Source of the DNA: a virus
Direction: 5' to 3' (one strand)
Length of the DNA stretch: 45,646 nt
IMG/VR virus record: IMGVR_UViG_3300036715_001452
Location: 1-45,646 of that record
Shown here: positions 1-45,646 of the stretch, piece by piece
How the letters are laid out: each line of letters opens with the position of its first letter
Position numbering within the stretch: position 1 is the stretch's first letter
The notes under the pieces: model-generated
What the model saw: only the letters and a program-made list of their open reading frames with translations
What the model was told of the DNA's origin: nothing
Databases searched by the model: none
Translations under genes and position numbers: made by a program

Positions 1-126
1 TTGTAGACAGTAAGAGTGCCATTCTCTGTGCCTACTTTTGATGCCCAGAAGATAAGGCCGTCGCTGGCCACTTGAGCATTGCCGCACACCCAAGCGCTGT
101 CGGATACCTGAGCATTGCCGCACACC
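1..126. repeat. Terminal redundancy, left copy
   Basis: These 126 bases are identical to 45505-45630. The match then breaks because the right end lacks one 36-bp unit of the tandem repeat and continues as at position 163 of the left end. The minus-strand reading frame is the same in both copies. This fits a circular assembly cut inside a repeat-bearing gene, or a permuted genome; it does not prove a physical terminal repeat. Confidence 0.9.
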
Positions 127-581
127 CAAGCGCTGTCGGATACCTGAGCATTGCCGCACACCTGGGCGCTGTCGGATACCTGAGCGTTGCCACACACCTG
201 GGCGCTGTCGGATACCTGAGCGTTGCCACATATCCAAGCACTGCCAGATACCTGAGCATTTCCGTACACTTTAGCACTGCCAGATACCTGAGCATTTCCG
301 TACACTTTAGCGCTGCCATACACTTTAGCGCTGCCATACACTTTAGCGCTGCCAGATATCCAAGCACTGCCGTACACTTGAGCGTCGCCATACACCCAAG
401 CGTTGTCATACACCCAAGCGTTGCCGTCTTGGCTCAACGACTTCTCACTCTCCACGTACCCGCCAAGAGAACCAGCAGATGCAAAATAAGAGATCGCAAT
501 AAGGGCTCGAATGCGCTTTACAGTTCGGCCCGGCGCAATGGTGATTTCATCGCCTGGGACAAATTCATATTTTTTGGTCAT
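1..581 (-). CDS. Hexapeptide-repeat (left-handed beta-helix) protein, N-terminal part
   Basis: The gene starts at ATG 581 and is open at the left edge; its remainder is at 45327-45646. Joined across the contig ends it would encode about 252 residues. Residues 1-52 form a short N-terminal domain (starts MTKKYEFVPGDE). Then come about 20 six-residue units of the type G-[NS]-A-[QWK]-V-[YCS] (residues 53-172), the hallmark of left-handed beta-helix or hexapeptide folds. A C-terminal domain follows, with the pattern NGTLTVYNTEG and RGCF. Proteins of this design are common in phages and have no established role. The start overlaps the stop of the upstream gene (ATGA), and the ribosome binding site GGAG lies inside that gene's end. 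Identity as a repeat protein is clear; function is unknown. Confidence 0.85.
   Translation of the reverse strand, partial: MTKKYEFVPGDEITIAPGRTVKRIRALIAISYFASAGSLGGYVESEKSLSQDGNAWVYDNAWVYGDAQVYGSAWISGSAKVYGSAKVYGSAKVYGNAQVSGSAKVYGNAQVSGSAWICGNAQVSDSAQVCGNAQVSDSAQVCGNAQVSDSAWVCGNAQVSDSAWVCGNAQVASDGLIFWASKVGTENGTLTVY
66..425. repeat. Coding tandem repeat, 18-bp units in a 36-bp higher-order array
   Basis: Twenty 18-bp units encode the hexapeptide repeats. Near the left edge they alternate as a 36-bp pair (units reading GNAQVS and DSAxVC on the minus strand) that is nearly identical from copy to copy. The copy of this array at the right end has one fewer 36-bp unit next to the junction, so copy number either varies in the population or was mis-assembled. 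Confidence 0.9.
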
Positions 582-601
582 ACCTTTTTCTCCAGTAGTG
601 C
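576..601. repeat. 26-bp direct repeat, left copy, flanking the hexapeptide gene
   Basis: The same 26 bases occur at 45325-45350. On the minus strand they encode the last residues A-L-L-E-K-K-V of the upstream gene, its TGA, the overlapping ATG and one more codon (ACC) of the downstream gene, including the GGAG ribosome binding site. The two copies bracket the whole hexapeptide-repeat gene on the circular map. Confidence 0.95.
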
Positions 602-826
602 TCTCTCAAGCCTCTCCACCTCTGCCAGCGCATCTGCAAGCTGCTTGGATTGGGTGGTGAGGGCTACGCGAACCTGATCCTCTGAGAAAACAGCCACTTG
701 ATCAGCGATCGGTGTGTCATCTCTGTAATGTTGTTTTACCAGGTAATACTTCACACCCATGACGATATATCCATAAGGCTTACCGACCAGCGCCATCAAG
801 TCCGGTTTGGGTTCTTTGGTAGTCAT
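578..826 (-). CDS. Small early protein, unknown (82 aa)
   Basis: Starts at ATG 826 with GGAGAACGAA just upstream, and overlaps both neighbours by ATGA. The N-terminal half (KPDLMALVGKPYGYIVMGVKYYLVK) looks compact and beta-rich. The C-terminal half (residues about 45-82) is a charged helix, probably coiled coil, ending ALLEKKV. The same ending closes the hexapeptide-repeat protein encoded next. No family recognised. The tight coupling shows it is translated with its neighbours in the leftward early operon. Confidence 0.75.
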   Translation of the reverse strand: MTTKEPKPDLMALVGKPYGYIVMGVKYYLVKQHYRDDTPIADQVAVFSEDQVRVALTTQSKQLADALAEVERLERALLEKKV

Positions 827-1065
827 TTCGTTCTCCAGATTCGTAAAATATCGCCAATTTTCTTCTGCGTGAATTCATAGCCAGTGCTTCTGGCAAGGTT
901 GCTGGCATGTGCTCTGCGGGGGTTCGGGACTTCAAGGCAGTCCCCAACTTGCATGAGCTTGGCTTTCTCGTAGATGTCCGTCCTGGCACCTTTCGGGAAA
1001 GGCAGGGGAATGTCCTTTTTGATTGTGGCTTCAAGGATAAGCTTGCCGTCAATGTAGCGGGGCAT
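823..1065 (-). CDS. Small early protein, possible nucleic-acid-binding (80 aa)
   Basis: ATG 1065 is preferred because AAGGTG lies 8 bases upstream; a GTG at 1077 would add four residues. It overlaps the next gene by ATGA. Layout: a short beta region (residues 1-20), then YEKAKLMQVGDCLEVP and a C-terminal segment YEFTQKKIGDILRIWR. This resembles a widespread group of small phage proteins that end in a tyrosine or phenylalanine, basic-loop and R-x-W-R pattern, often thought to bind DNA, but I cannot name a family. Function not established. Confidence 0.75.
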   Translation of the reverse strand: MPRYIDGKLILEATIKKDIPLPFPKGARTDIYEKAKLMQVGDCLEVPNPRRAHASNLARSTGYEFTQKKIGDILRIWRTK

Positions 1066-1098
1066 CTTACTTGGCACCTTGGGAAAGAACGAAGGTTC

Positions 1099-1296
1099 TC
1101 ATTTTGACTTACCCCATTGGTTAACTATAACTTCAATCTGAACATCCAAGTATTCCTCGGCTGTCAGGTTTTGCCTAAGCCCAAGCAATTGCACCATGCG
1201 CAGCTGATTGGGGTTGTGTATGCAGGCTCCACCGCCCTTGCGGTGAGGGAACCAGTAGCCGCTGCAACTACAGGGCTTTAGTAAGGATGTGGTCAA
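1099..1296 (-). CDS. Small cysteine/histidine-rich early protein (about 65 aa)
   Basis: The frame holds a convincing block C-S-C-x-G-Y-W-F-P-H-R-x-G-G-G-A-C, a pattern seen in small phage proteins that probably bind zinc, followed by a helical tail ending QWGKSK. The only start close to this block is TTG at 1296, inside the end of the preceding gene; the longer open frame to 1596 is antisense-like sequence of that gene. The start is therefore uncertain and there is no strong ribosome binding site. Function unknown. Confidence 0.55.
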   Translation of the reverse strand: MTTSLLKPCSCSGYWFPHRKGGGACIHNPNQLRMVQLLGLRQNLTAEEYLDVQIEVIVNQWGKSK

Positions 1297-1636
1297 TAAT
1301 AGTACGTTTCTCACACTTAGAGAGTAATCTCTGCATCTCCGTGCGGATAGCCCTGTCAGATCGCAAGTGCCGCTGCGCCATAGTCTCCACGGAGGTAAAC
1401 GACATCCATGCCATAAGTAGACTATGACGCTCATTATCATTCCACGCACAGGTATTACGCGAAATGAGTGGATCTGTAATCTCTGGTCGTACCCCATTAG
1501 GCTTGACCATTGACCAGCCTTGAGAATTGATAACTGGCTGAGAAAGCTCAGCACATACAGCCCGAAGTTCTGCAGCAGCGAGGTCCAAGGCCTCAACTGC
1601 TTTACTGAGGGTATAGCTAAATTTAGAAGTGTTCAT
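1268..1636 (-). CDS. Early protein, helical, unknown (122 aa)
   Basis: Begins at ATG 1636, overlapping the stop of the upstream gene by ATGA. The N-terminal 35 residues form a helix (residues EALDLAAAELRAVCAELSQP). The rest contains W-N-D-N-E-R-H-S and a basic segment RHLRSDRAIRTEMQRLLSK that could form a helix-turn-helix-like pair, but no family is recognised. It sits between a zinc-ribbon protein and the cysteine-rich gene in the leftward early operon. A DNA- or RNA-polymerase-binding role is only a guess. Confidence 0.7.
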   Translation of the reverse strand: MNTSKFSYTLSKAVEALDLAAAELRAVCAELSQPVINSQGWSMVKPNGVRPEITDPLISRNTCAWNDNERHSLLMAWMSFTSVETMAQRHLRSDRAIRTEMQRLLSKCEKRTIIDHILTKAL

Positions 1637-2310
1637 GATATGACTGAGGTTGAGGTCGTCTGGAGAGATTCCGCAATTTCATCTTGCTGTGCTTCGAAGT
1701 CGAGCTGCTCTTGCTCTTCAGCAGATGGGCCGTCTTCTTCCTCAGCTCCGAAGTCCACCCCCAACTGATCTGCAGGGTAGCCAGCTTCATCAAGACAAAA
1801 CCCACAGAAAGGGGTTTTGAGGTTGGAGGTTTTGACTTCTTTTGTCAAGTTCTTGTTGCTGTCGTCATTGGCAGGCACCCAACGGTAAGTATCCCGCACG
1901 TAGGCATGACGCTGCTTCTGGAAAATGCCGGTGAAAGATGCTGTGAGGTTGCCACATGCTGCACATTCCTGGATCTGGAACATTGCGGTGGCTGCAAGTG
2001 GGAGCCATTCTCGCTTGGACTCCAGGCGGCGAGTGTCATCCAAGAGATCTTGCAAGGAAGTGTTGCCAGTGAGTCGCCCGCTTTTGAGGGCTTTGCGGTT
2101 TTTGCGAAGCTGGCGGCCTTCAGCGGCATGGTCGCGGGCCTCGGACAAGAGGTCATCGAAGCTGAAGCCAGTAGACTCAGAAGTTGTTGCAAGAGGCTCC
2201 TCAGAATCTGATGGCCCTGAGCTGTCAACAACAGATTCTTCCCCTAGGGTGTCGCCATTGTCGAAGCCAATGTTATCCTCGTCTGAGCCGAGTTGCGGCT
2301 GTGTGTGCAT
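1633..2310 (-). CDS. Acidic protein with a central two-CxxC zinc motif (225 aa)
   Basis: ATG 2310 is chosen because AAAAAGGACTGACTACC precedes it; the same leader precedes the gene starting at 5336. The first 50 residues are acidic and disordered, followed by a helical region (FDDLLSEARDHAAEGRQLRK). A central CAACG and, about 45 residues later, CGFC make a likely four-cysteine zinc site. The C-terminal 50 residues are again acidic and rich in Glu and Gln. Length and layout suggest a scaffold-like or adaptor protein. No family recognised. Confidence 0.75.
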   Translation of the reverse strand: MHTQPQLGSDEDNIGFDNGDTLGEESVVDSSGPSDSEEPLATTSESTGFSFDDLLSEARDHAAEGRQLRKNRKALKSGRLTGNTSLQDLLDDTRRLESKREWLPLAATAMFQIQECAACGNLTASFTGIFQKQRHAYVRDTYRWVPANDDSNKNLTKEVKTSNLKTPFCGFCLDEAGYPADQLGVDFGAEEEDGPSAEEQEQLDFEAQQDEIAESLQTTSTSVIS

Positions 2311-2423
2311 GGTAGTCAGTCCTTTTTCAAAAGCCATGAGCACAATGCTCATATGCAATGGTAATTATAATGTATTACGCGCGAGAAATCATCAAGTTTA
2401 TTGTATGATTTTTAACTACTTAG

Positions 2424-2596: not shown

Positions 2597-3178
2597 TTAC
2601 TCGGCAGCTGTTTCGGCCGCAGGTCCATCAACACCGACGCCCAACTTGGCCAGCACAGCATCGGTATCAACCTGCGGTCCCTTGGCACGCTTGGCCGCTT
2701 CGAGGCGAGCAATGATCGGCTGCAGCTTGGGGTGGCCACGCAGGGCCACTTTGTCGGCCTGGGGCAGTGCCTTGAGCTCTTCCTTGATGGTGGCAGGGGA
2801 TTTGCCGGTGAGTTCCACCAATGCACGGGCCAGCACACTGGAGCCCGCAATGCCAGAAGCTTCGCGGCGTTGGCTCCAATCACCTGCAGCCAGACGTTCC
2901 ATCAGTTCATCAACAGCCAAGATGGCGTCGTCGATGTCATCCAGACCGGAGACTTCATCACCCAGCTTCTGCTCGGCACCGTGCAAAGCAAATTGCTGCA
3001 ACAGCTCAGCAGGAATCGTGAAGAGGCGAGTTTCACCGTTCACGAAGTCCAATCGGGTTTGCAGTTGACCATCCGCCGTGATTTCACTCGATTTCAGCAG
3101 GCGGCGTTTGCCGGGAAAATCCACTGTACGGCCATCATCCATCTTGACCGTGTTGTAAGTTGTTTCTGCTCGTGCCAT
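2597..3178 (-). CDS. Early protein, paralogue of the 178-aa protein at 4800 (193 aa)
   Basis: ATG 3178 has AGGAACTG upstream, and a near-consensus promoter lies about 100 bases before it. The N-terminal part (residues 1-55) is beta-rich and ends with N-G-E-T-R-L-F-T-I-P. The remainder is helical, with L-x-R-A-L-V-E-L-T-G-K-S and K-V-A-L-R-G-H-P-K. These blocks align with A-M-V-A-L-T-G-K-E-S and K-A-L-R-G-S-P-K-V of the 178-aa protein, so the two are paralogues. Near the C-terminus is VDTDAVLAKLGV, a motif shared with two other early proteins. Its own promoter suggests a protein made in quantity. Function unknown. Confidence 0.85.
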   Translation of the reverse strand: MARAETTYNTVKMDDGRTVDFPGKRRLLKSSEITADGQLQTRLDFVNGETRLFTIPAELLQQFALHGAEQKLGDEVSGLDDIDDAILAVDELMERLAAGDWSQRREASGIAGSSVLARALVELTGKSPATIKEELKALPQADKVALRGHPKLQPIIARLEAAKRAKGPQVDTDAVLAKLGVGVDGPAAETAAE

Positions 3179-3278
3179 GTTTTCAGTTCCTGAAAGAAAA
3201 AGTCCTTAACGAAATGCGGCGAGACTTTGATGCCGACCACTTAGCAAAGGCGCCGAGTGGGTTTGGGTTTGAGATTCG

Positions 3279-3306
3279 ACTATAGCACAGGTTTGCCAGC
3301 TGTCAA
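3279..3306 (-). promoter_or_regulatory. Sigma-70-type promoter for the 193-aa gene
   Basis: Minus-strand reading gives a perfect -35 box TTGACA (complement of 3301-3306), a 16-bp spacer and a -10 box TATAGT (complement of 3279-3284). The predicted start is near 3272, about 95 bases before ATG 3178. It is the best host-type promoter I see in the window. Confidence 0.7.
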
Positions 3307-3323
3307 CAATTTTCACCACAGTT

Positions 3324-3722
3324 CTATGGTTTGGCTTGCTGGCGAGCTTCACGATCGCGGATTTCGTTGAGTTGCTTCAGCAGTTTGTTGGGCAAGAGTT
3401 CAGGGACAGTGGCCGTGGGGTCAGGTGGCAGGTCAAGAACGGAGCGCAGCAGGTGATTGTCCCAACGATCCCGCTTCATCGAGAAGACGACTGAGCTGTC
3501 TTCAATAGTGAGGGTCAGGTGCTTGGTGAGTTCCAGCAGGTCTGGGCGAAGGTTCTCACGTTCAAGTGCCCGGAAGTAACTCCAGATTCGGAAGCGCATT
3601 TTGTAGGCTTTTTTCGGGTCACCACAGGGAAGTTGGAATCCCGGCTGATTAAACCCACGCACCAAGAGTGTTTCATACTCAGGCCCGAATGAGATTGAGG
3701 TGTCAAGTTCTCGCTTTGCCAT
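3324..3722 (-). CDS. Early protein, unknown (132 aa)
   Basis: ATG 3722 is preferred over the upstream in-frame ATG at 3755 because GAAGGAAAACTACAG precedes it. The protein starts MAKRELDTSISFGPEYE. It contains a region F-R-I-W-S-Y-F-R-A-L-E-R and ends in a basic helix (LNEIRDREARQQAKP). It has no cysteines in a metal pattern and no membrane segment. I do not recognise the family. A 228-base leader with no gene, then palindrome copy 2, lies upstream, so the gene may be transcribed from there. Confidence 0.75.
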   Translation of the reverse strand: MAKRELDTSISFGPEYETLLVRGFNQPGFQLPCGDPKKAYKMRFRIWSYFRALERENLRPDLLELTKHLTLTIEDSSVVFSMKRDRWDNHLLRSVLDLPPDPTATVPELLPNKLLKQLNEIRDREARQQAKP

Positions 3723-3950
3723 CTGTAGTTTTCCTTCTGTAGTTGGGGGTTGCACCGGAGTTTGCCCGGAGTTTTTCCAGATTGCAAGGGCACAATTGGA
3801 CTGCTTAGTGGGTCAGTTTATGGGGTGATTGGTGGGGGATTGTGGCATGGTGCGGATGCCATGGCAACGGGGCGCAATCGAGCATGAGCGCGTCAACCAT
3901 GCGGGGACATACTAGGGTATGGGAAACGGAGAAAACGCCTACAATCGGTG
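3723..3950. other. Gene-free leader between palindrome copy 2 and the 132-aa gene
   Basis: No open frame here has a ribosome binding site or protein-like composition on either strand. It holds a direct repeat of the type CTCCGG near 3750-3775. I could not find a convincing -10/-35 pair, so the dyad at 3951-3990 is the only obvious candidate signal for the downstream gene. Confidence 0.5.
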
Positions 3951-3990
3951 TTCTGCACCCGCATTAATATATAATAATGCGGGTGTGAAA
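3951..3990. repeat. Dispersed palindrome, copy 2
   Basis: Core 3956-3985: CACCCGCATTAATAT and its mirror ATAATAATGCGGGTG. The outer arms TTCTG and TGAAA differ by transitions only. It lies directly downstream, in the minus direction, of a canonical intrinsic terminator (stem 4004-4022) and upstream of the 132-aa gene. Confidence 0.95.
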
Positions 3991-3993
3991 TAG

Positions 3994-6152: not shown

Positions 6153-6161
6153 TGCTTGAGG

Positions 6162-6201
6162 TTTCACACCCGCGTTATTATATAATAATACGGGCGCAGA
6201 A
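6162..6201. repeat. Dispersed palindrome, copy 3
   Basis: TTTCACACCCGCGTTATTAT mirrored by ATAATAATACGGGCGCAGAA. It is the least symmetrical copy in the GC part, with C/A and G/T mismatches, but each half still fits the half-site consensus. Confidence 0.9.
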
Positions 6202-6331
6202 CTCACCACAGCGGCCCCTCTTATAACAGTAACAGCTACGGCTAGTAAGTCGCCGTGCTAACGGAGGGCCCCCCATCCCCTCTGCTGCCGCTGCTCTTAC
6301 TAACAACTCAGCTTCCGTCCGTTGGTATATT

Positions 6332-6367
6332 CCGCACCCGCGTTAATATATAATAACGCGGGTGTAT
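6332..6367. repeat. Dispersed palindrome, copy 4
   Basis: Core 6335-6364: CACCCGCGTTAATAT mirrored by ATAATAACGCGGGTG. The usual GCA is replaced by GCG and matched by CGC on the other arm, so the change is compensated. Confidence 0.95.
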
Positions 6368-6685
6368 TATTATCTGTTATATGCTCCCCGAGCTGGTGCC
6401 TATTTTTTGAGCACACCCCCAGCGCCCTCTGAACTGCGCCCAATTAGCTAGTTGCTACAGCTTCGCGGTGCCCGGCTACGGGAGAGCCCACCATCTCGCA
6501 ACCCCTTACTAGCTGCTGCAGCCCCAATTTCCACCCACTTACTGTTGCTGTAGCTGTTGCTTTTGCGGCTGTAACAGCAATGCTGCAGCTGTGGGCTTGA
6601 CGGGGGTTGGCGCCCGCCGTGAGGCGGGAAGCAGAGCCAACAAGTGTGCTGCAGCCCTTTGGCGGCTGCCGAAACCCCATTTTGA

Positions 6686-6837: not shown

Positions 6838-6880
6838 GTTTCACACCCGCATTAATATATAATAATGCGGGTGTATAATT
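6838..6880. repeat. Dispersed palindrome, copy 5
   Basis: Core 6844-6873: CACCCGCATTAATAT mirrored by ATAATAATGCGGGTG, then TATAAT directly after the right arm (6874-6879). It is the last copy before the rightward unit, 150 bases ahead of the first start codon at 7031, so it is the best-placed candidate signal for late transcription. Confidence 0.95.
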
Positions 6881-12532: not shown

Positions 12533-12576
12533 TATTTCACACCCGCATTATTATATAATAATGCGGGTGCATAATC
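12533..12576. repeat. Dispersed palindrome, copy 6
   Basis: Core 12540-12569: CACCCGCATTATTAT mirrored by ATAATAATGCGGGTG. It starts 5 bases after the stop of the GroES-like gene and ends about 25 bases before the scaffold start. The core is fully symmetric with TATAAT on both strands. Confidence 0.95.
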
Positions 12577-13590: not shown

Positions 13591-14205
13591 ATGGCAACAG
13601 TTAACAATTCTCAAAACACCCCTGCTCAACAACCTGCAAAGGACGCACCTGTGACTGCTGATGCTACAAAAGTCCCCTCTCCTGCGGCCCAACGGCCTGA
13701 GGAAATGGATCGCTTTGCTTTGGCTGTCCGTGCTCGTGAAGCCGCCCGCGCCAAGGAAGCCGCAGAACGTACTGGTACTGCCAAACGTGAACGCGAGCCT
13801 GATCTCGGTGGCTTGGTGTTGAAGCTCTCTGTCGTTGGCACAATCCCTGGGCATCAGATGTACTGGGCCAATGACGAAAAGGGTGAAATTGAGGAACTCA
13901 TTTACCAAGGGTTTGATTTCGTGGAACCTGGCGAAGTTCGCCGTGCAGCTAACTTGGTTGGTGATTCCGACCTGTCGAACCGCATCAGCCGCTATGTCGG
14001 CACACGCGATGATGGCTCTCCCCTGCGTGCCTATCTGCTCAAGTGTCCAGACGAACTCTGGAATGAGCGTCAAGCCGCCAAGCAATACCAGGCCTCTGCC
14101 TGGGATGAGCAAATCCGCAATGGTCGGATGAAGCCAACGGATAAAACACAGTACATCCCCAAAGGTGTTTCCAATCACTTGGAAACTCGAATGGGCGAAG
14201 TTTAA
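13591..14205 (+). CDS. Structural-region protein, unknown (204 aa)
   Basis: ATG 13591 has AGAGGTCAAAATC upstream. Residues 1-70 are disordered and rich in Ala, Glu and Arg (an A-R-A-K-E-A-A-E-R repeat-like helix). Residues 75-160 form a compact domain starting L-V-L-K-L-S-V-V-G-T-I-P-G-H-Q-M-Y-W-A-N-D and containing Y-V-G-T-R-D-D-G-S-P-L-R-A-Y-L-L-K. The product is probably a minor head protein or capsid-assembly partner because it lies between the scaffold and decoration genes. No family recognised. Confidence 0.7.
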   Translation: MATVNNSQNTPAQQPAKDAPVTADATKVPSPAAQRPEEMDRFALAVRAREAARAKEAAERTGTAKREREPDLGGLVLKLSVVGTIPGHQMYWANDEKGEIEELIYQGFDFVEPGEVRRAANLVGDSDLSNRISRYVGTRDDGSPLRAYLLKCPDELWNERQAAKQYQASAWDEQIRNGRMKPTDKTQYIPKGVSNHLETRMGEV

Positions 14206-15788: not shown

Positions 15789-15833
15789 GTATTTTGCACC
15801 CGTATTATTATATAATAATACGGGTGTAGAACT
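15789..15833. repeat. Dispersed palindrome, copy 7
   Basis: Core 15797-15826: CACCCGTATTATTAT mirrored by ATAATAATACGGGTG. Relative to the main form the GCA/TGC pair is changed to GTA/TAC on both arms, a compensated substitution. It lies between the capsid gene and the next structural gene. Confidence 0.95.
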
Positions 15834-19501: not shown

Positions 19502-20049
19502 TGCGTAGATTGTTTTCGCCCTTTGAGCAGCAAGAGACATTTATTGCCAGAGGTGCCCCAATGCCTAGTTTCACACCCGTATTAAAATATAATAATGCGG
19601 GTGTGGAATGTCGTGTGGTGGATGTTCTATATATGCTCCGAGAGCTAGCCCCTCGATTTTTTGAGGCTCATTGGGCTGAGGTTGGGCAGGACAAAAGCTG
19701 GGAAGTTGACATCAATTGGCCTATGTACCGCAAACTGGAGCTTGCCGATATGCTTCGTATTGTGGTGCTGGAGGTTGATGGTCAGCCACAGGGCTACTTC
19801 ATCATGGTCATTAGCCCCTCGCTGCATTACCAATCCCATGCGCTTGCCAGCAGCGATATGTTCTACATTGCTCCTGCTTTCAGAGCCCGTTATGCAGTGC
19901 GGCTCTTCCGGGCGGCTGAAGCCTATGCAAAAGAAGCAGGAGCTGCCAAACTGTACATTCCGTTCAAAATCTACAAGCCAATCTTCCCACTGTTGAAGCG
20001 GTGTGGGTTCTCCTTAGTGGAGAGTGTCGCGGTTAAAACTTTGAGGTAA
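19501..20049 (+). CDS. GNAT-family acetyltransferase-like protein (182 aa)
   Basis: ATG 19501 overlaps the previous stop (TGATG); a second start at 19561 with AGAGGTGCCCC is equally good. Residues about 80-180 show the GNAT order: V-V-L-E-V-D-G-Q-P-Q-G-Y-F strand, D-M-F-Y-I-A-P-A-F-R-A-R-Y-A-V-R-L-F with an acetyl-CoA-binding loop where the usual G is replaced by A, then the helix A-E-A-Y-A-K-E-A-G-A and the C-terminal strand with R-C-G-F. Palindrome copy 8 is translated in-frame as residues about 24-37. GNAT proteins occur in the morphogenesis cluster of many podoviruses; substrate unknown. Confidence 0.75.
   Translation: MRRLFSPFEQQETFIARGAPMPSFTPVLKYNNAGVECRVVDVLYMLRELAPRFFEAHWAEVGQDKSWEVDINWPMYRKLELADMLRIVVLEVDGQPQGYFIMVISPSLHYQSHALASSDMFYIAPAFRARYAVRLFRAAEAYAKEAGAAKLYIPFKIYKPIFPLLKRCGFSLVESVAVKTLR
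19569..19608. repeat. Dispersed palindrome, copy 8, inside a coding region
   Basis: Core 19574-19603: CACCCGTATTAAAAT mirrored by ATAATAATGCGGGTG. It is the only copy lying inside a gene, near the start of the acetyltransferase, and adds the in-frame residues F-T-P-V-L-K-Y-N-N-A-G-V. The T/G pair is a wobble in plus-strand RNA. Confidence 0.95.
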
Positions 20050-24047: not shown

Positions 24048-24090
24048 TTTCACACCCGTATTATTATATAATAATACGGGTGCAGAATCA
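24045..24090. repeat. Dispersed palindrome, copy 9
   Basis: Core 24053-24082: CACCCGTATTATTAT mirrored by ATAATAATACGGGTG, with compensated GTA/TAC. The stop codon of the ejection-protein gene (24045-24047) abuts the left arm. A 93-base leader then precedes the ATP-grasp gene. Confidence 0.95.
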
Positions 24091-24182: not shown

Positions 24183-25496
24183 ATGAAAATCCTCCTAATT
24201 GATGCCATTGCCTCAGCTGTAGACTTTGCCATGCGCCTGGAAGCTGCAGGTCATGACGTGCGAGTGTTCATGGGACCTGACCCAAAAGGGCTTCGGCATC
24301 CAGCAGGGGATGGTTTGATCACAAAAGTCAACTCCTGGGAAAGCTCAATGAACTGGGCTGACCTGATCTTTTTGACTGATAATGCAAAGTATGTCGGGCA
24401 ACTTGAGGGCTGGCGCAAGGCGGGTTATCCGATCTTTGGCTGCAACGTGGAATGTGCCAAGTGGGAGCTGGAGCGCGACAAGGGGGTTGAAGTTTTCGAT
24501 CAGAGCGGCATTGAAACTATCCCGTCGATTCGCTTCAACAACTATGATGAAGCAATTCTGCACCTGGAAGCCAATGCCGATAAGCGGTATGTCAGTAAGC
24601 CTCTTGGTGATGCTGACCGTGCACTGTCGTATGTGAGCAAGTCCAGCCGGGATTTGAGGTTTATGCTAGGGGAGTGGAAAAAGCATGCCCCACGGCATCC
24701 GTTTATTTTCCAGGAATTTCACGGTGGCATTGAGGTCGCAGTGGGCGGCTGGGTTGGGTACAATGGATTTCTTGGGTATGTGCTGGAGAACTTCGAGCAC
24801 AAAAAGCTGATGAACGATGACATCGGACCGAATACAGGTGAGATGGGCACAGTGATGAAGTATGTGCCGATGGCAGAGTCGAAGCTGGCGCAGGAGTTGC
24901 TGTTGCCGCTTGAAGCGGCATTGATCCGGGAAGGCTATACTGGCTATATTGACGTGGCTGTTATTATTGACAAGCAGGGCAAATGCTGGCCGTTGGAGTT
25001 CACCACACGTCCGGGCTGGCCATTGTTTCAGATTCAGCAGATTTTGCACCCAGAGCTGTGTCAATGGATGCTGGATGCTTGCCAGGGGAAAGACAGTTTC
25101 AAACCATACACTGATGTGGCTGTTGGAATTGTGACAGCAATCAAGGACTTTCCGTACAACTTCCAGCCACGGGAAGCTATGTGTGGGTTTCCGATCTGGG
25201 GGACAGAGAAAGTACGGTATTGCTTCCATCCAGCGGAAATGCAGGCAGGGGAGGCGCCAGAGCTTGAGGGAGGGAAGCTGAAAACAACTCCATTGATGGT
25301 GTCGGCTGGCAGCTATATTGGGGTTGTAAGCGGGTTTGCCGAGACTGTCGAAGACGCAATCGACGATGCCTATGAGAATCTGGCAAAGCTGGAGTTTGCC
25401 AACAGCCCAATGTATCGCACAGACATCGGCAAGCGTGTGCTGAAGCAACTCCCTGAGCTGCAAAAGATGGGGTATTTTACGGATTGGAAAGCCTGA
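24183..25496 (+). CDS. PurD-like ATP-grasp ligase (437 aa)
   Basis: Family members use ATP to join a carboxylate to an amine; PurD makes glycinamide ribonucleotide. Residues 1-30 are a Rossmann-like N-domain (M-K-I-L-L-I-D-A), with K139 in the A-domain (V-S-K-P-L-G-D) and E178 (F-Q-E-F-H-G-G-I-E-V). Residues 215-222 (G-P-N-T-G-E-M-G) are the PurD signature, and E272-F-T-T-R-P-G-W-P replaces PurD E-x-N-x-R-x-G-D-P. The changed Asn and Asp, and the lack of other purine genes, argue for a different substrate. There is no ribosome binding site before ATG 24183. Substrate unknown. Confidence 0.8.
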   Translation: MKILLIDAIASAVDFAMRLEAAGHDVRVFMGPDPKGLRHPAGDGLITKVNSWESSMNWADLIFLTDNAKYVGQLEGWRKAGYPIFGCNVECAKWELERDKGVEVFDQSGIETIPSIRFNNYDEAILHLEANADKRYVSKPLGDADRALSYVSKSSRDLRFMLGEWKKHAPRHPFIFQEFHGGIEVAVGGWVGYNGFLGYVLENFEHKKLMNDDIGPNTGEMGTVMKYVPMAESKLAQELLLPLEAALIREGYTGYIDVAVIIDKQGKCWPLEFTTRPGWPLFQIQQILHPELCQWMLDACQGKDSFKPYTDVAVGIVTAIKDFPYNFQPREAMCGFPIWGTEKVRYCFHPAEMQAGEAPELEGGKLKTTPLMVSAGSYIGVVSGFAETVEDAIDDAYENLAKLEFANSPMYRTDIGKRVLKQLPELQKMGYFTDWKA

Positions 25497-25879: not shown

Positions 25880-25922
25880 ATTCCACACCCGTATTATTAT
25901 ATAATAATGCGGGTGCATAACA
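25880..25922. repeat. Dispersed palindrome, copy 10
   Basis: Core 25886-25915: CACCCGTATTATTAT mirrored by ATAATAATGCGGGTG. The left T faces the right G, a wobble pair in plus-strand RNA. It follows the stop codon at 25877-25879 by a few bases. Confidence 0.95.
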
Positions 25923-29365: not shown

Positions 29366-29410
29366 GTGTTTTACACCCGCATTATTATATTTTAATACGG
29401 GTGTAAAATG
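29366..29410. repeat. Dispersed palindrome, copy 11
   Basis: Core 29374-29403: CACCCGCATTATTAT mirrored by ATTTTAATACGGGTG. The outer arms are TTTTA and TAAAA, a compensated change from TTTCA and TGAAA. The right arm runs into the ATG of the next gene at 29408, so the hairpin would include its initiation region. Confidence 0.95.
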
Positions 29411-38530: not shown

Positions 38531-38750
38531 AGCCTTCACTATCAGCCTGTGGGTGATTGGCAATGGCGATATCTTTTAGTACACCCATAACGGAAGCTTT
38601 GCAGCTGTCACAAATGAGGGTGATGCCCACAGCATTGAACAGAGTGTTTGCCGGTGGGGGCTGAACTTGAGCCCCATAGTTGAACTCTTCCGAACGGAAC
38701 AGCTGACGGCAGGCGTCACAGGTGTAGTCATAGCGGATTCGAAGGCCCAT
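38529..38750 (-). CDS. Zinc-ribbon protein (73 aa)
   Basis: ATG 38750 shares bases with the stop of the Sak4-like gene (TAATG) and has GGGGAG upstream. The sequence Y-D-Y-T-C-D-A-C-R-Q-L-F-R-S-E-E-F and, about 30 residues later, I-C-D-S-C-K-A-S-V form a two-CxxC zinc ribbon. It probably binds DNA or a protein partner and is cotranslated with the ATPase. Function unknown. Confidence 0.8.
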   Translation of the reverse strand: MGLRIRYDYTCDACRQLFRSEEFNYGAQVQPPPANTLFNAVGITLICDSCKASVMGVLKDIAIANHPQADSEG

Positions 38751-39607
38751 TACAGCTCCCCCCCACGGCTCTTCCACTTGTTAATGATGATCTTGAAATC
38801 AGCTGGCAACCCTTGCCCAATCACCAGATTCCGTGTTTTCACATCAGCTATCGCCGAGCCGGTGTCCCAGGTGAACTTGCTGCCTTCGCGCACCGTGAGT
38901 ATGCAGTCCGAAAACATTGGCGGTAGCTTTGGGGCCAAGGCCTTCCCGAGGGTGCTGACCATGAGCTTGACACCGCCAAGGATTGCGTCGGTTTCACGTT
39001 CAACGTGGGCCAGCAAAACAAAGTGGCACTTGCAGTTGTCAGTCCACATACGCACAACCTTTTCCACCTGATCCTGGGCGATACCCCAATCGGACTGGTT
39101 GCGAACCGGCTTACCTCCAACCACAAGAGACATAGCAGCACGAGCCAAGCCAGCCATACCATCAACCACCAAAGCTCGGGAGGGAGTCCAGTCATCGATT
39201 GGGCCATAGGATTTTCCTGTACGGTCATCAGGGAAGTCATTGCAAGCACTGATTAGCTTGAGAAATTGATTGTGCTTGCTGCGGTTGGGATCAGACATCT
39301 TGGCAAGAGATTCCAGTGCCATTGTGTTAACCTTTGTGGCGCTCTCTAAAAACTCAGCGAAAGAGGCTTTTGGGGCTTCGAGAATGTGCCAGTGGAGATT
39401 GTCGGGAATGGGCTTGCCCTTGTCAGTGAAGTAAGCCAGTAGAGATTCCAGGCCAGGTTCGAGCCCCAGGTAGAATACTTCCACACCGGATTCCACAAGG
39501 GAACCAACGGAGTAGGTTTTGCCTGTGCCAGCTGGCCCCATCAACAGGACGTTGACGCCGGGGAGCACGGACTTGGCAGTGGGGATTGTTTCAGTTTCGG
39601 TTGTCAT
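38750..39607 (-). CDS. Sak4-like P-loop ATPase, recombination (285 aa)
   Basis: ATG 39607 overlaps the stop of the previous gene (ATGA). Residues 24-31 (G-P-A-G-T-G-K-T) are Walker A. V-F-Y-L-G-L-E-P-G-L-E-S follows, then A-L-V-V-D-G-M-A-G-L as Walker B-like, F-V-L-L-A-H-V-E-R-E-T-D as a RecA-like sensor region and a C-terminal tail. This matches the single-strand annealing or RecA-like ATPases of the Sak4 type (AAA_24) that work with SSB-like proteins. The gene is next to a nuclease and the OB-fold-like protein, fitting a recombination module. Confidence 0.85.
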   Translation of the reverse strand: MTTETETIPTAKSVLPGVNVLLMGPAGTGKTYSVGSLVESGVEVFYLGLEPGLESLLAYFTDKGKPIPDNLHWHILEAPKASFAEFLESATKVNTMALESLAKMSDPNRSKHNQFLKLISACNDFPDDRTGKSYGPIDDWTPSRALVVDGMAGLARAAMSLVVGGKPVRNQSDWGIAQDQVEKVVRMWTDNCKCHFVLLAHVERETDAILGGVKLMVSTLGKALAPKLPPMFSDCILTVREGSKFTWDTGSAIADVKTRNLVIGQGLPADFKIIINKWKSRGGEL

Positions 39608-39932: not shown

Positions 39933-40922
39933 TTAGTTACGTTTGCTAAGCATTGCTTGCAATTCGTTGCCCAACTCCGTGCCGCTGACGTGGCCCCATG
40001 AACTCTCGTGCTCCTCAACTGTGAGTTCCTTCCGAGCCAAGGGGTCCCAGACCTTCTTGGTGAAGTTCATCGGCAGCCAGGATTCAGGATCACTGCTCTT
40101 GCAGGTGCTGATGAAGATGCACCCACCGTAATCAGCACAGGCATTGTCGAGATTGTAATCCCAATAGCCTTCTTCCCACATCCGCTTCATCGCTTCAATA
40201 TCACGCACAACCTGCTTTTCCCAGCGCGAAACTTCATACTCAGATCGGTACGTCGGTACTTCCAGCGTGTCGTATTTTGTTTTGAGGATGCTGATCCCAC
40301 GGACAATCGCGCCTGCAGCTTTAATGCCTTGCCGATGAGCTGCCCAGACGTAGCCAGTGAACTGTGAACGCATTTCCCACTGACGCCCCCAAGTAGCACC
40401 GAGAGACGAAGTTGTTTTTTCATCATAGATGTAGATGCCTCCAGCACGGTGCGCTATCATGTCTGATCGTCCAGTGTAGAGGATGGGGTCTCCAGAGACT
40501 GGATGATTGATAGGTAGTGGCTCGGCAAAGGAGAACTCGATTCCCCTGCGACCTGAAGCAAGTGTGATAGGGTCTGCCCCGTCCGAGCCGAGTGGATACT
40601 GGTTAAAGTAAAACTCCAGAGCACCACACATCCGTTCGAGGCTTTTAGCGGATTCGGGAGGGCACTGAAAGTCGCCGTAATGCCCGATGAGGGCAGCCAG
40701 ACCGTCAGCTTCGGAATCGGAGGCTGATTTGCCTTGAACGTAGAAACTATTGCGCGCAGCTTCAATACCAGAAGCAAATGCGCCCCCCGCCACCAAGTGA
40801 ACAGAAGTGTCTCGGGGTTTCCAGTGCTGGACATATTGACGGAAGGCTTTTTGGGGGCAGGCATGAAAGGCAGCGAGAATGGTGCTGTCGATCATGGGGG
40901 GGAACATGGGGCGATCAGTCAT
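39933..40922 (-). CDS. Cas4/RecB-like PD-(D/E)XK nuclease with probable Fe-S cluster (329 aa)
   Basis: ATG 40922 follows CGGAGGCTTAGC. Residues 20-26 (H-A-C-P-Q-K-A) carry the N-terminal cysteine. D154 in G-R-S-D, then D-E-K-T at 167-170 and Q-x-x-x-Y at 187-191 are the nuclease and RecB motifs. Three late cysteines (C-A-D-Y-G-G-C-I-F-I-S-T-C) complete a one-plus-three arrangement like Cas4 and AddB, which hold a 4Fe-4S cluster. It likely processes DNA ends in recombination with the Sak4-like ATPase encoded downstream. Confidence 0.85.
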   Translation of the reverse strand: MTDRPMFPPMIDSTILAAFHACPQKAFRQYVQHWKPRDTSVHLVAGGAFASGIEAARNSFYVQGKSASDSEADGLAALIGHYGDFQCPPESAKSLERMCGALEFYFNQYPLGSDGADPITLASGRRGIEFSFAEPLPINHPVSGDPILYTGRSDMIAHRAGGIYIYDEKTTSSLGATWGRQWEMRSQFTGYVWAAHRQGIKAAGAIVRGISILKTKYDTLEVPTYRSEYEVSRWEKQVVRDIEAMKRMWEEGYWDYNLDNACADYGGCIFISTCKSSDPESWLPMNFTKKVWDPLARKELTVEEHESSWGHVSGTELGNELQAMLSKRN

Positions 40923-41486: not shown

Positions 41487-41514
41487 TTGAGGTTAGCCTT
41501 TCAGTTGGTGAGTG

Positions 41515-41591: not shown

Positions 41592-42863
41592 CTACGCCAG
41601 AAATAACCTCGTCGTTGGCCGTGAACAAGCTACATACAGACACTGAAACGCCTCACGTCGAGTCCTGTTACTCAAGATGTCCTGGTAATCCACCCACACA
41701 CTCTCATAGGTCGAGCCCTGGCTCCGATGAGCAGTAATTGCATAAGCGTAGCGAATGTCGTGGAACAAGTCCTTGAGGTTCCAGAAGCTCTTCCACAGTT
41801 TCGGGTAAGCTTGAGCTTGATGTGCCAAGTTTTGGCAATCTGCTTCAAATTGCTGCTTTGACGCCGGGTGCAGAACCAGCAACCGCACACTGGCACCCAT
41901 CTCTGTTATGGCCCTCAGCTCATAGGCTTTGTACTTCGGCTCCAAAGGGTGATTGCACTCAATGATGCTTTCCACAACAGCTTCTTCGTCTGTTGACATC
42001 AGCATGGTGTCGTTGCGCTCACAAGGAGAGCCCGCAACAATGCGTTCACCAAGCATCCACGGAGTAGATTGAGCTGCCGCACCGTAAAGAGCATGGCGAA
42101 TCAGCGAGTTATACTCATTCACACGCACATTCCGCCAAGCAATCACCTTTGAGACAGCACCATCAGAGAACTCGCCGTTGGCCGCAGCATTGTAAATTGA
42201 CTCTTTGAAGGCGGGTTTTGTCATTTTCCAGACCCCTCCAGTATGGTCATTGCTGGACTTGATGTTGATTGAGGGCGCGGGACTGTCCACGACTTCACGG
42301 ATTTCCGTAACCAGATTCAGAATCTGATTGTCGTGTCGCATCACAGTTTGCAAATTGGCATCAGTTCCCAAGTCCCAGATTGGGCTGCGAACCTCCCCAA
42401 CCGGAGGCAACTGTGCAGCATCCCCCATGAACACAACCTTGAGGTGGAACTTTTCCACCAGTGGTCCAAGCTCTTTCATCAAGTTTTTGTTGACCATCGA
42501 ACCTTCGTCGATGAAGATTACGTCAATCTGTTCGAGGTCTTCAGGTGGCTTACCCGCGACGATCGACTTCAGTTCACCCGATTTGTCGATACGCAAGCCT
42601 AACAAGCTGTAGATTGTGCAAGCCTCCCCAGTAACAGCTTTCAGGACCTTCGCGGCTTTGTTGGTTGGGGCTGTATAGGCGAAGTTCGTTCGGGAACCAG
42701 CAGTGCGTGCAACAACTTCCCGCATGCAGAATGTTTTGCCCGTTCCCGCAAATCCACTGAATACGAAGTAAGGGCTTACAGGATCAGGGTCTTGGATGAA
42801 GTCCAACAGCTTCTCGACGGCCATCTGTTGTTCTGGTGTGAGGCTGATGTCACTTTTGTGCAT
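41592..42863 (-). CDS. SF1B DNA helicase, Dda/RecD-like (423 aa)
   Basis: ATG 42863 follows TTGGAGGTTCAGT. Residues 37-44 (G-F-A-G-T-G-K-T) are Walker A, followed by Y-T-A-P-T-N-K-A-A (motif Ia) and V-I-F-I-D-E-G-S-M (Walker B). V-F-M-G-D-A-A-Q-L-P-P-V is motif III, and the C-terminus has Y-A-I-T-A-H-R-S-Q-G-S-T-Y (motif V). Length is close to T4 Dda. It would unwind DNA at the replication fork. It overlaps the upstream DUF6378-like gene by 14 bases. Confidence 0.9.
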   Translation of the reverse strand: MHKSDISLTPEQQMAVEKLLDFIQDPDPVSPYFVFSGFAGTGKTFCMREVVARTAGSRTNFAYTAPTNKAAKVLKAVTGEACTIYSLLGLRIDKSGELKSIVAGKPPEDLEQIDVIFIDEGSMVNKNLMKELGPLVEKFHLKVVFMGDAAQLPPVGEVRSPIWDLGTDANLQTVMRHDNQILNLVTEIREVVDSPAPSINIKSSNDHTGGVWKMTKPAFKESIYNAAANGEFSDGAVSKVIAWRNVRVNEYNSLIRHALYGAAAQSTPWMLGERIVAGSPCERNDTMLMSTDEEAVVESIIECNHPLEPKYKAYELRAITEMGASVRLLVLHPASKQQFEADCQNLAHQAQAYPKLWKSFWNLKDLFHDIRYAYAITAHRSQGSTYESVWVDYQDILSNRTRREAFQCLYVACSRPTTRLFLA

Positions 42864-43152
42864 ACTGAACCTCCAAGCGGTCAGCTACGAGCTTGGCATA
42901 GCCTGCAATGTCGATCCAGCTGTCAGCATAGTTGGGATCGCCGTTGATAATTCTGCCAATCTTGTGGCAGATCATATGCAAAGCCTCTTCTTGGTCAGAG
43001 GCCAGGACTTTCCCACGCTTCCCCAGCTCTTCTGCAAGCACAGTCTTAAGGGCCATCGTCACCTCAGCATGCCCCTTGAATTGGCCATACCGCTTCCCCC
43101 GCTCTTCGAGCGTTGCGGCGAGGCTTACAGCCTCAGGTTTGTTTGATGTCAT
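42850..43152 (-). CDS. DUF6378-like protein (100 aa)
   Basis: ATG 43152 follows GGAGAAACCAAAG; the open frame to 43302 is not needed. The order E-E-R-G-K-R-Y-G-Q-F, H-A-E-V-T-M-A-L-K, Q-E-E-A-L-H-M-I-C-H-K-I-G-R-I-I-N-G-D-P-N-Y-A-D-S-W-I-D-I-A-G-Y-A-K-L-V matches the DUF6378 pattern. That family resembles all-alpha nucleotide pyrophosphohydrolases, and a nucleotide-pool role is only inferred. It overlaps the DUF4406-like gene and helicase. Confidence 0.8.
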   Translation of the reverse strand: MTSNKPEAVSLAATLEERGKRYGQFKGHAEVTMALKTVLAEELGKRGKVLASDQEEALHMICHKIGRIINGDPNYADSWIDIAGYAKLVADRLEVQYAQK

Positions 43153-43555
43153 CTTTGGTTTCTCCAGTAAAAAGAGGCTTCGCCTCGGGTTGACCGCCGG
43201 CAGCAGATTGCCAGTAGTTGCATTCATCAATACAGGGCATGCCGAGCTGCGTTGCAAGTTCAGATTCAAGCTTGGCCCCATGGGAATTCTCCCAGCCCTC
43301 AAGTCGCATGATGATGTCAGCTTTTACCATCATTCCAAGGGCGCGCTTCATGTACCACTCCCATGCCTGCCCTGGACAGTCACCATTGATTTCACCTGGG
43401 TTGTAGACAACAAAGCCGTGAGCACATAGGCGCTCTGCCATTCTGTTGAAGGCTGGAATGTTGAAGTCAGGCAAGCCGGTCATGGGGCCTGCAATGTAGA
43501 CGATCATTTTGCGCGTTTTCAGCTGACGCGAAACTGTGTCGAGATCAGTTATCAT
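43133..43555 (-). CDS. DUF4406-like protein, nucleoside-deoxyribosyltransferase-related (140 aa)
   Basis: ATG 43555 overlaps the previous gene; a second start gives M-I-V-Y-I-A-G-P-M-T-G at about residue 17. That block, with F-N-I-P-A-F-N-R-M-A, Y-N-P-G-E-I, and K-A-D-I-I-M-R-L-E-G-W-E-N-S-H-G-A-K-L-E-S-E-L-A, is the DUF4406 pattern and related to nucleoside 2-deoxyribosyltransferases. It may act on nucleotides. The C-terminal 20 residues vary. Enzyme activity not proven. Confidence 0.8.
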   Translation of the reverse strand: MITDLDTVSRQLKTRKMIVYIAGPMTGLPDFNIPAFNRMAERLCAHGFVVYNPGEINGDCPGQAWEWYMKRALGMMVKADIIMRLEGWENSHGAKLESELATQLGMPCIDECNYWQSAAGGQPEAKPLFTGETKDDIKQT

Positions 43556-43784
43556 GACCGATCTTTCGGGGAACCGCAACACCCAAGCCATTGCAATACG
43601 GACATGGCTGCTGTTGAGCCGCGAAATAGTTTTCAAGCAAATCCGTGAAGAACTGCTTGTAGGCTCCCACAGGGATGCGTCCTTCGAGTTCGCTGAAAAG
43701 TTCAATCTGCACCTTTGCTGCCAGAGGTTCCGGCAACGACAAGTTAATCGGGACGGCTGGTGTGGTTTGCTTGGGACGTGCCAT
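43545..43784 (-). CDS. Small early protein with one CxxC (79 aa)
   Basis: ATG 43784 follows AAGGAACACCT. It reads V-P-I-N-L-S-L-P-E-P-L-A-A-K-V-Q-I-E-L-F-S-E-L-E-G-R-I-P-V-G-A-Y-K-Q-F-F, a pattern common among small phage proteins, then C-P-Y-C-N-G. One CxxC is present and no second pair, so any zinc site must be shared between chains. Function unknown. Confidence 0.75.
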   Translation of the reverse strand: MARPKQTTPAVPINLSLPEPLAAKVQIELFSELEGRIPVGAYKQFFTDLLENYFAAQQQPCPYCNGLGVAVPRKIGHDN

Positions 43785-43799
43785 AGGTGTTCCTTGTGG

Positions 43800-44021
43800 T
43801 CAGTTGGGGGATTCGATAAATGTAACACCATCGGGCGCAGAGATCAACCGCCCGGAGGGGAAAATGATGCAGTATGTGCAATCGGGGGAAAATCTGGGAG
43901 TGGCGACAAAGCACAAGCTGTCGTGGACACAAGCATAGACAGGCCAACCGTCTGCCCAAAGGCAGATCAACAGCTTGTGACGCTGAGGCTCGGCCTTTGG
44001 GATGGGGGTGTAAGAGTTCAT
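43800..44021 (-). CDS. Small early protein, unknown (73 aa)
   Basis: ATG 44021 overlaps the previous stop by ATGA; the longer frame to 44132 runs into the upstream gene. The protein has S-Y-T-P-I-P-K-A-E-P, W-A-D-G-W-P-V-Y-A-C-V and C-T-Y-C-I-I-F-P-S-G-R-L-I, with several cysteines lacking a clear spacing. Beta-rich. Coupled to its neighbours in the early operon. No family recognised. Confidence 0.65.
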   Translation of the reverse strand: MNSYTPIPKAEPQRHKLLICLWADGWPVYACVHDSLCFVATPRFSPDCTYCIIFPSGRLISAPDGVTFIESPN

Positions 44022-44296
44022 GCGTGATGTTGAAGGAAAAAGCCGAGAAGAAAGAAGATAAAAAACACAACAAAAGCCCATACAGCAGTCAGTAGTAAGG
44101 CATCCGCCAAGTAGGCACTGTATCTTCTCCAAGTTCTTTTCGACTTGGTGACATCAAGCTCAACCAAGCTCTCAAAAGGAAAAGCTTCTCGCAGAGTTCT
44201 TGGGCAGATATAACAATCCCGATACTTGCCATTAGTTGCCCAAGACGGGGCTTTTGCCGCAACCTGCATATCCTTCGTGATAAAAATAACCATCAT
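44018..44296 (-). CDS. Small membrane protein, early (92 aa)
   Basis: Two adjacent ATG codons lie at 44296 and 44293; the first overlaps the previous stop (ATGA). The N-terminal 55 residues are soluble with C-Y-I-C-P-R. A long hydrophobic segment (L-L-L-T-A-V-W-A-F-V-V-F-F-I-F-F-L-L-G-F-F-L) occupies the C-terminus, so the protein is tail-anchored. Early membrane proteins of phages often affect host envelope or exclusion of other phages; this is inference only. Confidence 0.7.
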   Translation of the reverse strand: MMVIFITKDMQVAAKAPSWATNGKYRDCYICPRTLREAFPFESLVELDVTKSKRTWRRYSAYLADALLLTAVWAFVVFFIFFLLGFFLQHHA

Positions 44297-44526
44297 AAAC
44301 CTTTCTGAATTGGGCGCCAGACAGTCCGAAGAGCTGTCTCAAGCTGTGGTAGAACCTGTTCCTGCGAGGTATAGCTTTCGGCCAGTCGTCGATTCCGCAC
44401 AGGTGAGCAATCTCGACACCAGCTGACTCGACGGTAGGTCTTGTCCTTGAGTGTGCTGATGTTGAAGCTGCGGGTGGGTCGCAGCTTCTGACAACAAGGA
44501 CACAGGTGCAGGATGGGGCGAGTCAT
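44293..44526 (-). CDS. Zinc-binding early protein (77 aa)
   Basis: ATG 44526 overlaps the stop of the previous gene (ATGA). Cysteines are spaced C-P-C-C-Q-K then, about 25 residues later, W-C-R-D-C-S, so a four-Cys zinc site is likely. The middle has the basic strand R-P-T-R-S-F-N-I-S. The C-terminus is helical. The layout resembles small phage zinc fingers. No function known. Confidence 0.7.
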   Translation of the reverse strand: MTRPILHLCPCCQKLRPTRSFNISTLKDKTYRRVSWCRDCSPVRNRRLAESYTSQEQVLPQLETALRTVWRPIQKGL

Positions 44527-44900
44527 CGAAAGCTCACGGAAAGTTGCACAAATGCTGGTGTGTAGTTCTGCACAGCAGGCACCAGCAAAAGATGCACGTC
44601 CATCTGTGGGCCAACAGACCAACTGATGACAGCACCAGCCATTGGGATGAAGCCTCCAGCATTAGCTTGATAGCCGTTGACAGTTCCAGCGGCAACGCCA
44701 TATTGGAGGCCACGAACTTTGCCAAGATAGCGACCGCCTACGGCATAAGCTGAGGCGTTGCCGATGCTGTTGTCATAGGCGCCTGCAGAAACGAAGTTGT
44801 CGTCCTTGGTGCAGAGAACGGCGAGTCCTGGGACGAAGGTGTTGTAATGGCCTTCGGCATGAAGGGCGGCAAGGTGGATTTGCGGGAGACAGTCAATCAT
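44523..44900 (-). CDS. Beta-barrel-like protein, unknown (125 aa)
   Basis: ATG 44900 overlaps the previous stop. The sequence alternates hydrophobic and polar residues through strands such as N-F-V-S-A-G-A-Y-D-N-S-I-G and A-Y-A-V-G-G-R-Y, and ends L-S-V-S-F-R. Similar small proteins, seen in many phages, look like outer-membrane beta-barrels, yet this one has no signal peptide at this start. It may act in the cytoplasm or be exported by an unknown route. Confidence 0.7.
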   Translation of the reverse strand: MIDCLPQIHLAALHAEGHYNTFVPGLAVLCTKDDNFVSAGAYDNSIGNASAYAVGGRYLGKVRGLQYGVAAGTVNGYQANAGGFIPMAGAVISWSVGPQMDVHLLLVPAVQNYTPAFVQLSVSFR

Positions 44901-45091
44901 TTGGATGCCCCCTTGGCCTGTGCTTGCACATCGCTGGCTGGCGGTTTGGGGGATGAGGGGAGGGCGGCTTCAACAGCGCGAACAGCAGCTTGGGTGCGTA
45001 GGAGTGCAGCAGCTTCCCACACATCATTGATGACAAACTCAGTTTTGTGCATACCTATGCGGTCTGCCAATCGTTCTGCTTCTGTCGTCAT
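44897..45091 (-). CDS. Small early protein, unknown (64 aa)
   Basis: ATG 45091 overlaps the stop of the previous gene (ATGA). The first 40 residues form helices (T-E-A-E-R-L-A-D-R-I-G-M-H and V-W-E-A-A-A-L-L-R-T-Q) and the last 25 are Pro/Ala-rich and flexible. No family recognised. Overlaps at both ends show that it is translated with its neighbours. Confidence 0.65.
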   Translation of the reverse strand: MTTEAERLADRIGMHKTEFVINDVWEAAALLRTQAAVRAVEAALPSSPKPPASDVQAQAKGASK

Positions 45092-45330
45092 ACCTTCACC
45101 TCCGCTTCTATTCGGCCAAACTGATCTTGCGAGGCGCGGATTTGATCTTGTAAGGTTGCGAGTTCATTGCGAAGCCCATCAACCACGGAGCTAAGCACCC
45201 CACAGGTACGTTCCAGACTATCCACATCGCTGCAGAGCGTATATACTTCATGACTGTCTGCCTTTCTTGATATATCACGTTCAATTTGTTCGACATGCCA
45301 TTCGACGCGAACGTCTGCAAAGCGGGTCAT
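45088..45330 (-). CDS. Coiled-coil early protein (80 aa)
   Basis: ATG 45330 overlaps the stop of the hexapeptide-repeat gene (ATGA), and its ribosome binding site lies in the 26-bp repeat shared with that gene's start. The protein is an almost continuous helix with heptad spacing (V-E-Q-I-E-R-D-I, V-D-S-L-E-R-T, L-R-N-E-L-A-T-L-Q-D-Q-I). It probably oligomerises. Function unknown. Confidence 0.7.
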   Translation of the reverse strand: MTRFADVRVEWHVEQIERDISRKADSHEVYTLCSDVDSLERTCGVLSSVVDGLRNELATLQDQIRASQDQFGRIEAEVKV

Positions 45331-45350
45331 ACCTTTTTCTCCAGTAGTGC
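45325..45350. repeat. 26-bp direct repeat, right copy, flanking the hexapeptide gene
   Basis: Identical to 576-601. It encodes the A-L-L-E-K-K-V end of the hexapeptide protein, its TGA and the overlapping ATG of the coiled-coil gene. Recombination between the copies would delete the whole hexapeptide gene and still leave a correct junction between the 82-aa and 80-aa genes. Confidence 0.95.
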
Positions 45351-45646
45351 GCGGGCGCGAGTAATCCGCGAGAGAGCCACTTCAATCAATAGCCGATACT
45401 CCAAATGCGTTTGGTCATCATGCTCTTTCTCTGATGCAGCAAGGAACCCATCAACAGCCCCACGGAAGCAACCGCGAGTAACTTCAAGTTCGTTGCCTTC
45501 AGTGTTGTAGACAGTAAGAGTGCCATTCTCTGTGCCTACTTTTGATGCCCAGAAGATAAGGCCGTCGCTGGCCACTTGAGCATTGCCGCACACCCAAGCG
45601 CTGTCGGATACCTGAGCATTGCCGCACACCTGGGCGCTGTCGGATA
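45327..45646 (-). CDS. Hexapeptide-repeat protein, C-terminal part
   Basis: The frame enters from the right edge and ends at TGA 45327-45329. It continues the gene that starts at 581: position 45506 falls in the same codon phase as position 2. This part holds the last repeat units and a C-terminal domain of about 80 residues with G-T-L-T-V-Y-N-T-E-G-N-E, R-G-C-F-R-G-A-V-D-G-F-L and a closing helix H-L-E-Y-R-L-L-I-E-V-A-L. The C-terminal domain is typical of phage proteins with this repeat layout. The gene is split only by the way the contig is opened. Confidence 0.85.
   Translation of the reverse strand, partial: SDSAQVCGNAQVSDSAWVCGNAQVASDGLIFWASKVGTENGTLTVYNTEGNELEVTRGCFRGAVDGFLAASEKEHDDQTHLEYRLLIEVALSRITRARALLEKKV
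45505..45630. repeat. Terminal redundancy, right copy
   Basis: Identical to 1-126. After 45630 the sequence continues as at position 163 of the left end, that is, one 36-bp unit is skipped. The last 16 bases of the window belong to that shifted alignment. Confidence 0.9.

Follow-up and report, generated by a model that had tools for sequence, protein, structure and literature searches.

The window analysed here is the whole of the virus record IMGVR_UViG_3300036715_001452 (45,646 nt). Its termini share a 142-bp overlap that contains 3 mismatches, and they fall within a minus-strand gene that encodes a hexapeptide-repeat protein. The 5' part of this gene (1..581) codes for the N-terminal domain and an 18-bp repeat array and runs on across the contig ends; the 3' part (45327..45646), which overlaps positions 1-142 by terminal redundancy, codes for the end of the array, the conserved C-terminal domain and the tail ALLEKKV. 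All 3 mismatches lie inside the 18/36-bp array, which leaves the exact unit count uncertain. A separately assembled contig of nearly the same virus (IMG/VR 3300035661_000385; L001, genome G001) carries the locus in one piece, with genes of 82 aa (2661-2909), 246 aa (the hexapeptide gene, 2906-3646) and 80 aa (3643-3885). The earlier sequence-only reading had placed the gene between two repeat copies on a circular map, and G001 bears this out, as the intact gene lies there unbroken between both copies, 737 bp apart. Outside the array G001 differs from the window by one base in about 19.7 kb; this near-identity confirms the assembly, but it does not provide an independent lineage. The number of 18/36-bp units differs between the two (window 1-430 and 45570-45646 versus L001:3060-3400), which may reflect slippage or an assembly effect.

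Upstream of the hexapeptide gene lies an orphan gene of 82 aa (578..826, minus strand), whose product has a coiled-coil-like end (...ADALAEVERLERALLEKKV), and downstream an orphan gene of 80 aa (45088..45330, minus strand), whose product starts with MTRFAD. Both belong to an operon of small genes in which most junctions are ATGA overlaps, and 4-bp overlaps of this type are found at both ends of the hexapeptide gene. The operon continues with small overlapping genes of 84, 60, 122 and 241 aa on one side (823..2358, minus strand), and on the other with further small genes (42850..45091, minus strand) up to a helicase gene at 41592-42863. Searches of IMG/VR revealed no relatives of the 82-, 84- and 80-aa genes beyond G001, and searches of GTDB genomes and phage records revealed none of the 82-aa gene. 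A match of the latter to L003 was rejected, as it lies inside a 1036-aa frame and reflects coiled-coil similarity only.

The edges of the hexapeptide gene are formed by a 26-bp direct repeat, GCACTACTGGAGAAAAAGGTATGACC (minus strand), of which the window contains exactly two copies, identical at 26/26 positions. Copy 1 (576..601, minus strand) comprises the 3' end of the 82-aa gene and the overlapping ATG of the hexapeptide gene, and copy 2 (45325..45350, minus strand) comprises the 3' end of the hexapeptide gene and the overlapping ATG of the 80-aa gene. Each copy contains the last seven codons (ALLEKKV), read in the same frame in both adjacent genes, followed by a TGA that forms a 4-base overlap with the next start (ATGACC), and a Shine-Dalgarno-like GGAG located 8 nt before the ATG. 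The sequence-only reading had described two identical copies encoding this tail, a stop, an overlapping start and a ribosome binding site, and all of these can be read directly in both. Dinucleotide shuffles of the window yielded zero matches, even with up to 3 mismatches allowed, and a chance origin of the 26-bp match is excluded. Beyond the 26 bp the flanks of the copies match at 8/30 positions upstream and 7/30 downstream, which corresponds to the background. The identity of wobble positions across 7 codons, together with the background-level flanks, indicates copied DNA and not protein convergence. Among other pairs of overlapping-ATG junctions in this genome, no shared run exceeds 10 nt (the count leaves out the hexapeptide junctions because that reading frame is split by the contig ends). 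The 26-mer contains no palindrome or fold and folds no better than its shuffled versions. The exact repeat was found in no IMG/VR contig besides G001, which holds two copies, and a 24-mer taken from it had zero exact matches among GTDB genomes.

The hexapeptide protein matches Pfam PF18836, a YdcK-type β-solenoid family (55.5 bits versus a cutoff of 30), and a PHROGs family of unknown function (phrog_7964, E-value 1.5e-72). Its predicted structure (mean pLDDT 51) was too poor for a fold search, and its GC content (0.524 versus 0.522 for the genome) is uninformative on a foreign origin. The alignment of homologs revealed a conserved core that extends from KYEF to about SRITRAR, outside which each lineage differs. 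In our genome the fit is flush: the core is followed immediately by the repeat, and the gene begins with the ATGACC that closes the other copy. Around the gene in nine other homologs, each with both ends complete, no direct repeat is longer than 10 nt. This indicates that the repeat belongs to this particular insertion and not to the gene family and, together with the lineage-specific tails, that here the repeat itself supplies the tail and the ATGACC start. Some homologs possess tails loosely similar to ALLEKKV (ARQELLK in L018, ARAALQAKEAA in L023), thus it is also possible that the tail is the hexapeptide gene's own and was copied to the 82-aa gene, even though it fits well onto the coiled-coil C-terminus of the 82-aa protein. 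The family is promiscuous with respect to its neighbors: 18 family contigs from IMG/VR phages present 11 downstream contexts, and the 10 of these 18 in which the upstream side is readable present 7 contexts. Only one of the 17 other family contigs contains a match to the DNA polymerase of this phage, and a weak one.

Two relatives, G003 and G004, share the gene order with the window (DNA polymerase 62-66% identity, major capsid protein 77%) and have terminal overlaps of 79 bp and 21 bp, respectively, so both look near complete. The distance from the 193-aa gene to the helicase gene is 1.6 and 2.6 kb in these genomes versus 5.4 kb here, and the block holds other small genes. The hexapeptide gene is absent from both, as are the 82-aa and 80-aa genes. 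The whole block of small genes turns over, i.e. it is hypervariable. The check suggested by the sequence-only reading was to look for related phages in which the 82-aa and 80-aa genes are joined directly; these genes were sought in the relatives, joined or apart, and none carries either. No genome was found in which the junction occurs just once; both sampled genomes (the window and G001) keep the gene.

We consider it probable that a past gene acquisition left the two copies as its scar, in an operon that is hypervariable and composed of small overlapping genes. The observations on which this interpretation rests are the exact repeat, the flush core, the lineage-specific tail, the promiscuous neighborhoods, the absence in relatives and the recombinase genes described below. 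A widespread accessory phage gene, encoding a β-solenoid hexapeptide-repeat protein, would have entered an operon whose genes overlap by 4 bp (ATGA), and a 26-bp junction between two genes would have become duplicated at the two edges of the inserted gene. As the duplicated unit consists of the end of the upstream frame, the stop, the Shine-Dalgarno sequence, and the overlapping ATG with a Thr codon, both neighbors would have been left intact. We infer the insertion event itself from its footprint, and which of the two copies is the original can be suggested on the same grounds at most. The insertion most likely relied on single-stranded ends that were copied or annealed at the junction. The possible agents are encoded by the phage itself: a Sak4-like single-strand annealing protein, a candidate recombinase (38750..39607, minus strand; phrog_124, E-value 4.7e-15), and a PD-(D/E)XK exonuclease, its candidate partner (39933..40922, minus strand; PF12705, E-value 9.5e-9; phrog_1218, E-value 2.4e-14). 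Annealing proteins of the Sak4-like kind are reported to stimulate recombination where the sequences involved are short or diverged (PMC8093625, PMC5499656). Recombination between the copies could delete the hexapeptide gene exactly and preserve the coupling of the 82-aa and 80-aa genes through a single junction; this part of the sequence-only reading follows from the sequence, and the removability of the gene is plausible on that basis.

Other explanations of the duplicated junction were weighed against this one. Overlapping genes might have converged on an optimal coupled start (GGAG...AAGGTATGAC), as could be suspected from the next operon junction (80/64 aa), which is similar (GGAGGTGAAGGTATGACG); however, that junction has 10/26 mismatches, the remaining junction pairs share short runs only, and a 26/26 match with background flanks effectively refutes this idea, to which we attach almost no credence. 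We also regard as very improbable that the copies reflect a selected C-terminal peptide, e.g. an interaction helix, common to two neighboring proteins. The tail does extend a predicted C-terminal helix (in a low-confidence model) and, in the 82-aa protein, a coiled-coil-like end; however, the identity covers every wobble position and runs past the stop into the start of the next gene, and the tails of the homologs are not conserved. It seems quite improbable that the hexapeptide gene is a gene-specific, currently active cassette, repeatedly moved or lost in the population by means of its own exchange sites. Such a cassette would agree with the flush flanking repeats in this genome, the promiscuity of the gene family and the recombinase genes of the phage, but not with the nine repeat-free homologs, the lack of a palindrome or fold in the repeat, or the retention of the gene in both sampled genomes. 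The unstructured 26-mer and the repeat-free homologs likewise set this locus apart from integron-like site-specific cassettes. Thus, of the mobile accessory gene proposed by the sequence-only reading, the accessory part stands, as the gene looks inserted, sits flush between the copies, occurs in many unrelated neighborhoods and is missing from G003 and G004. The claim of "its own exchange sites" is not supported in view of the repeat-free homologs and the restriction of the repeat to this virus in the IMG/VR and GTDB searches.

The remaining alternative is a conserved boundary of the HK620/lambdoid type, in which the 26-bp junction would be an exchange site common to related phages, with modules swapped by homologous or annealing recombination. 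A degenerate search of IMG/VR for the ALLEKKV-stop/ATGACC junction identified one candidate in G007, whose head genes mark it as a distant relative (TerL 41%, portal 39%, MCP 46% identity). A gene of G007 ends with ALLEKKV and a stop that overlaps ATGACC, with 5/26 mismatches that are all synonymous, and the downstream gene is unrelated. However, by our own estimate about one chance match is expected at this degeneracy, and this was the single match in IMG/VR. The junction was found in none of the closer relatives G003, G004 and G005, the genome contigs had no exact match, and among 34 further head-gene relatives there was only one variant, with 2 mismatches, which is weaker than the G007 case. 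We therefore judge a conserved boundary to be unlikely. The related idea of a reusable linker, by which this broad phage group would plug different small genes into its coupled operons through the ALLEKKV-stop/ATGACC junction, with G007 as a diverged second case, is at best a slim prospect. The 74-aa gene of G007 that ends with ALLEKKV lies between 16-bp direct repeats AGGAGCAGGGAAATGA (L052:13741-13756 and 14022-14037), which hold a ribosome binding site and a start codon. By our own estimate such a repeat would arise by chance about 0.2 times in 45 kb, at a site that is moreover constrained, and chance is not excluded for this pair.

An acquisition scar, which we prefer, has a close counterpart in the literature. 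In mycobacteriophage Island3, compared with Brujita, the neighboring small genes 67 and 68 end in the same C-terminal coding sequence, a direct repeat of 18 residues, i.e. about 50-60 bp, and recombination between its copies accounts for why one gene is present or absent (PMC3029335, Fig. 5C). This is the closest published case and the same kind of structure, as the adjacent genes in our phage also have a direct repeat within their 3' coding ends, read in the same frame. The two cases differ in that the repeat described here is 26 bp long and includes the start codon and ribosome binding site of the next gene, and in that for Island3/Brujita a near-identical genome with one copy is available. 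Lambdoid phages offer a second comparison in the older idea of conserved boundary sequences (Clark et al. 2001, HK620, as cited in PMC3029335), which resemble our junction insofar as a short sequence at a gene boundary would allow genes to be joined undamaged. A boundary of this kind would be shared between phages with different genes on either side, and G007 is the one weak case of such sharing here; most mosaic boundaries are devoid of such short conserved sequences (PMC3029335). The hexapeptide gene resembles phage morons in being accessory, in occurring in many contexts and in being missing from the near-complete G003 and G004, where its neighbors are missing as well. Unlike morons, it is translationally coupled within an operon, and a consensus scan of the coding strand revealed no promoter- or terminator-like site of its own; the label "moron-like" given by the sequence-only reading does not hold in the strict sense. 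If our interpretation is correct, this phage, which encodes an annealing recombinase, would provide a clean example of gene gain where a stop and a start codon meet, with one repeat carrying the stop, the ribosome binding site and the start. It would offer a concrete prediction of how overlapping phage operons gain or lose genes without breaking translation. By itself the case leaves existing knowledge unchanged. Comparable footprints have been described in other phages.

Several further features of these genomes were observed. Scattered through the window are fourteen near-identical palindromes, each about 42 nt long and of the GTTTCACACCCGCATTATTATATAATAATGCGGGTGTGAAAC type (2429-2470, 3950-3991, 6161-6202, 6329-6370, 6838-6879, 12534-12575, 15791-15832, 19568-19609, 24047-24088, 25880-25921, 29368-29409, 33102-33143, 38488-38529 and 41514-41555), located mostly in intergenic gaps and with paired changes in the stems. 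Rfam searches, including those with these palindromes, gave no match. G003 (L040-L042), G004 (L043-L045) and G005 (L046-L047) each possess a distinct dispersed short-repeat family of their own, several of them palindromic (e.g. TATTACTCCGGAGTAAT in G003), which suggests genome-specific palindrome families in this clade. The family A DNA polymerase encoded at 33479-35869 (PF00476, E-value 8e-38) carries an N-terminal fusion to a uracil-DNA-glycosylase-like domain (PF03167, E-value 4e-11), and the gene at 35880-37382 encodes a ParB-like N-terminal domain (PF02195) fused to a DNA methylase (PF01555). Finally, positions 24183-25496 encode a conserved 437-aa protein that is weakly similar to phosphoribosylglycinamide synthetase domains (both below the Pfam cutoff) and is present in the relatives at 50-58% identity.
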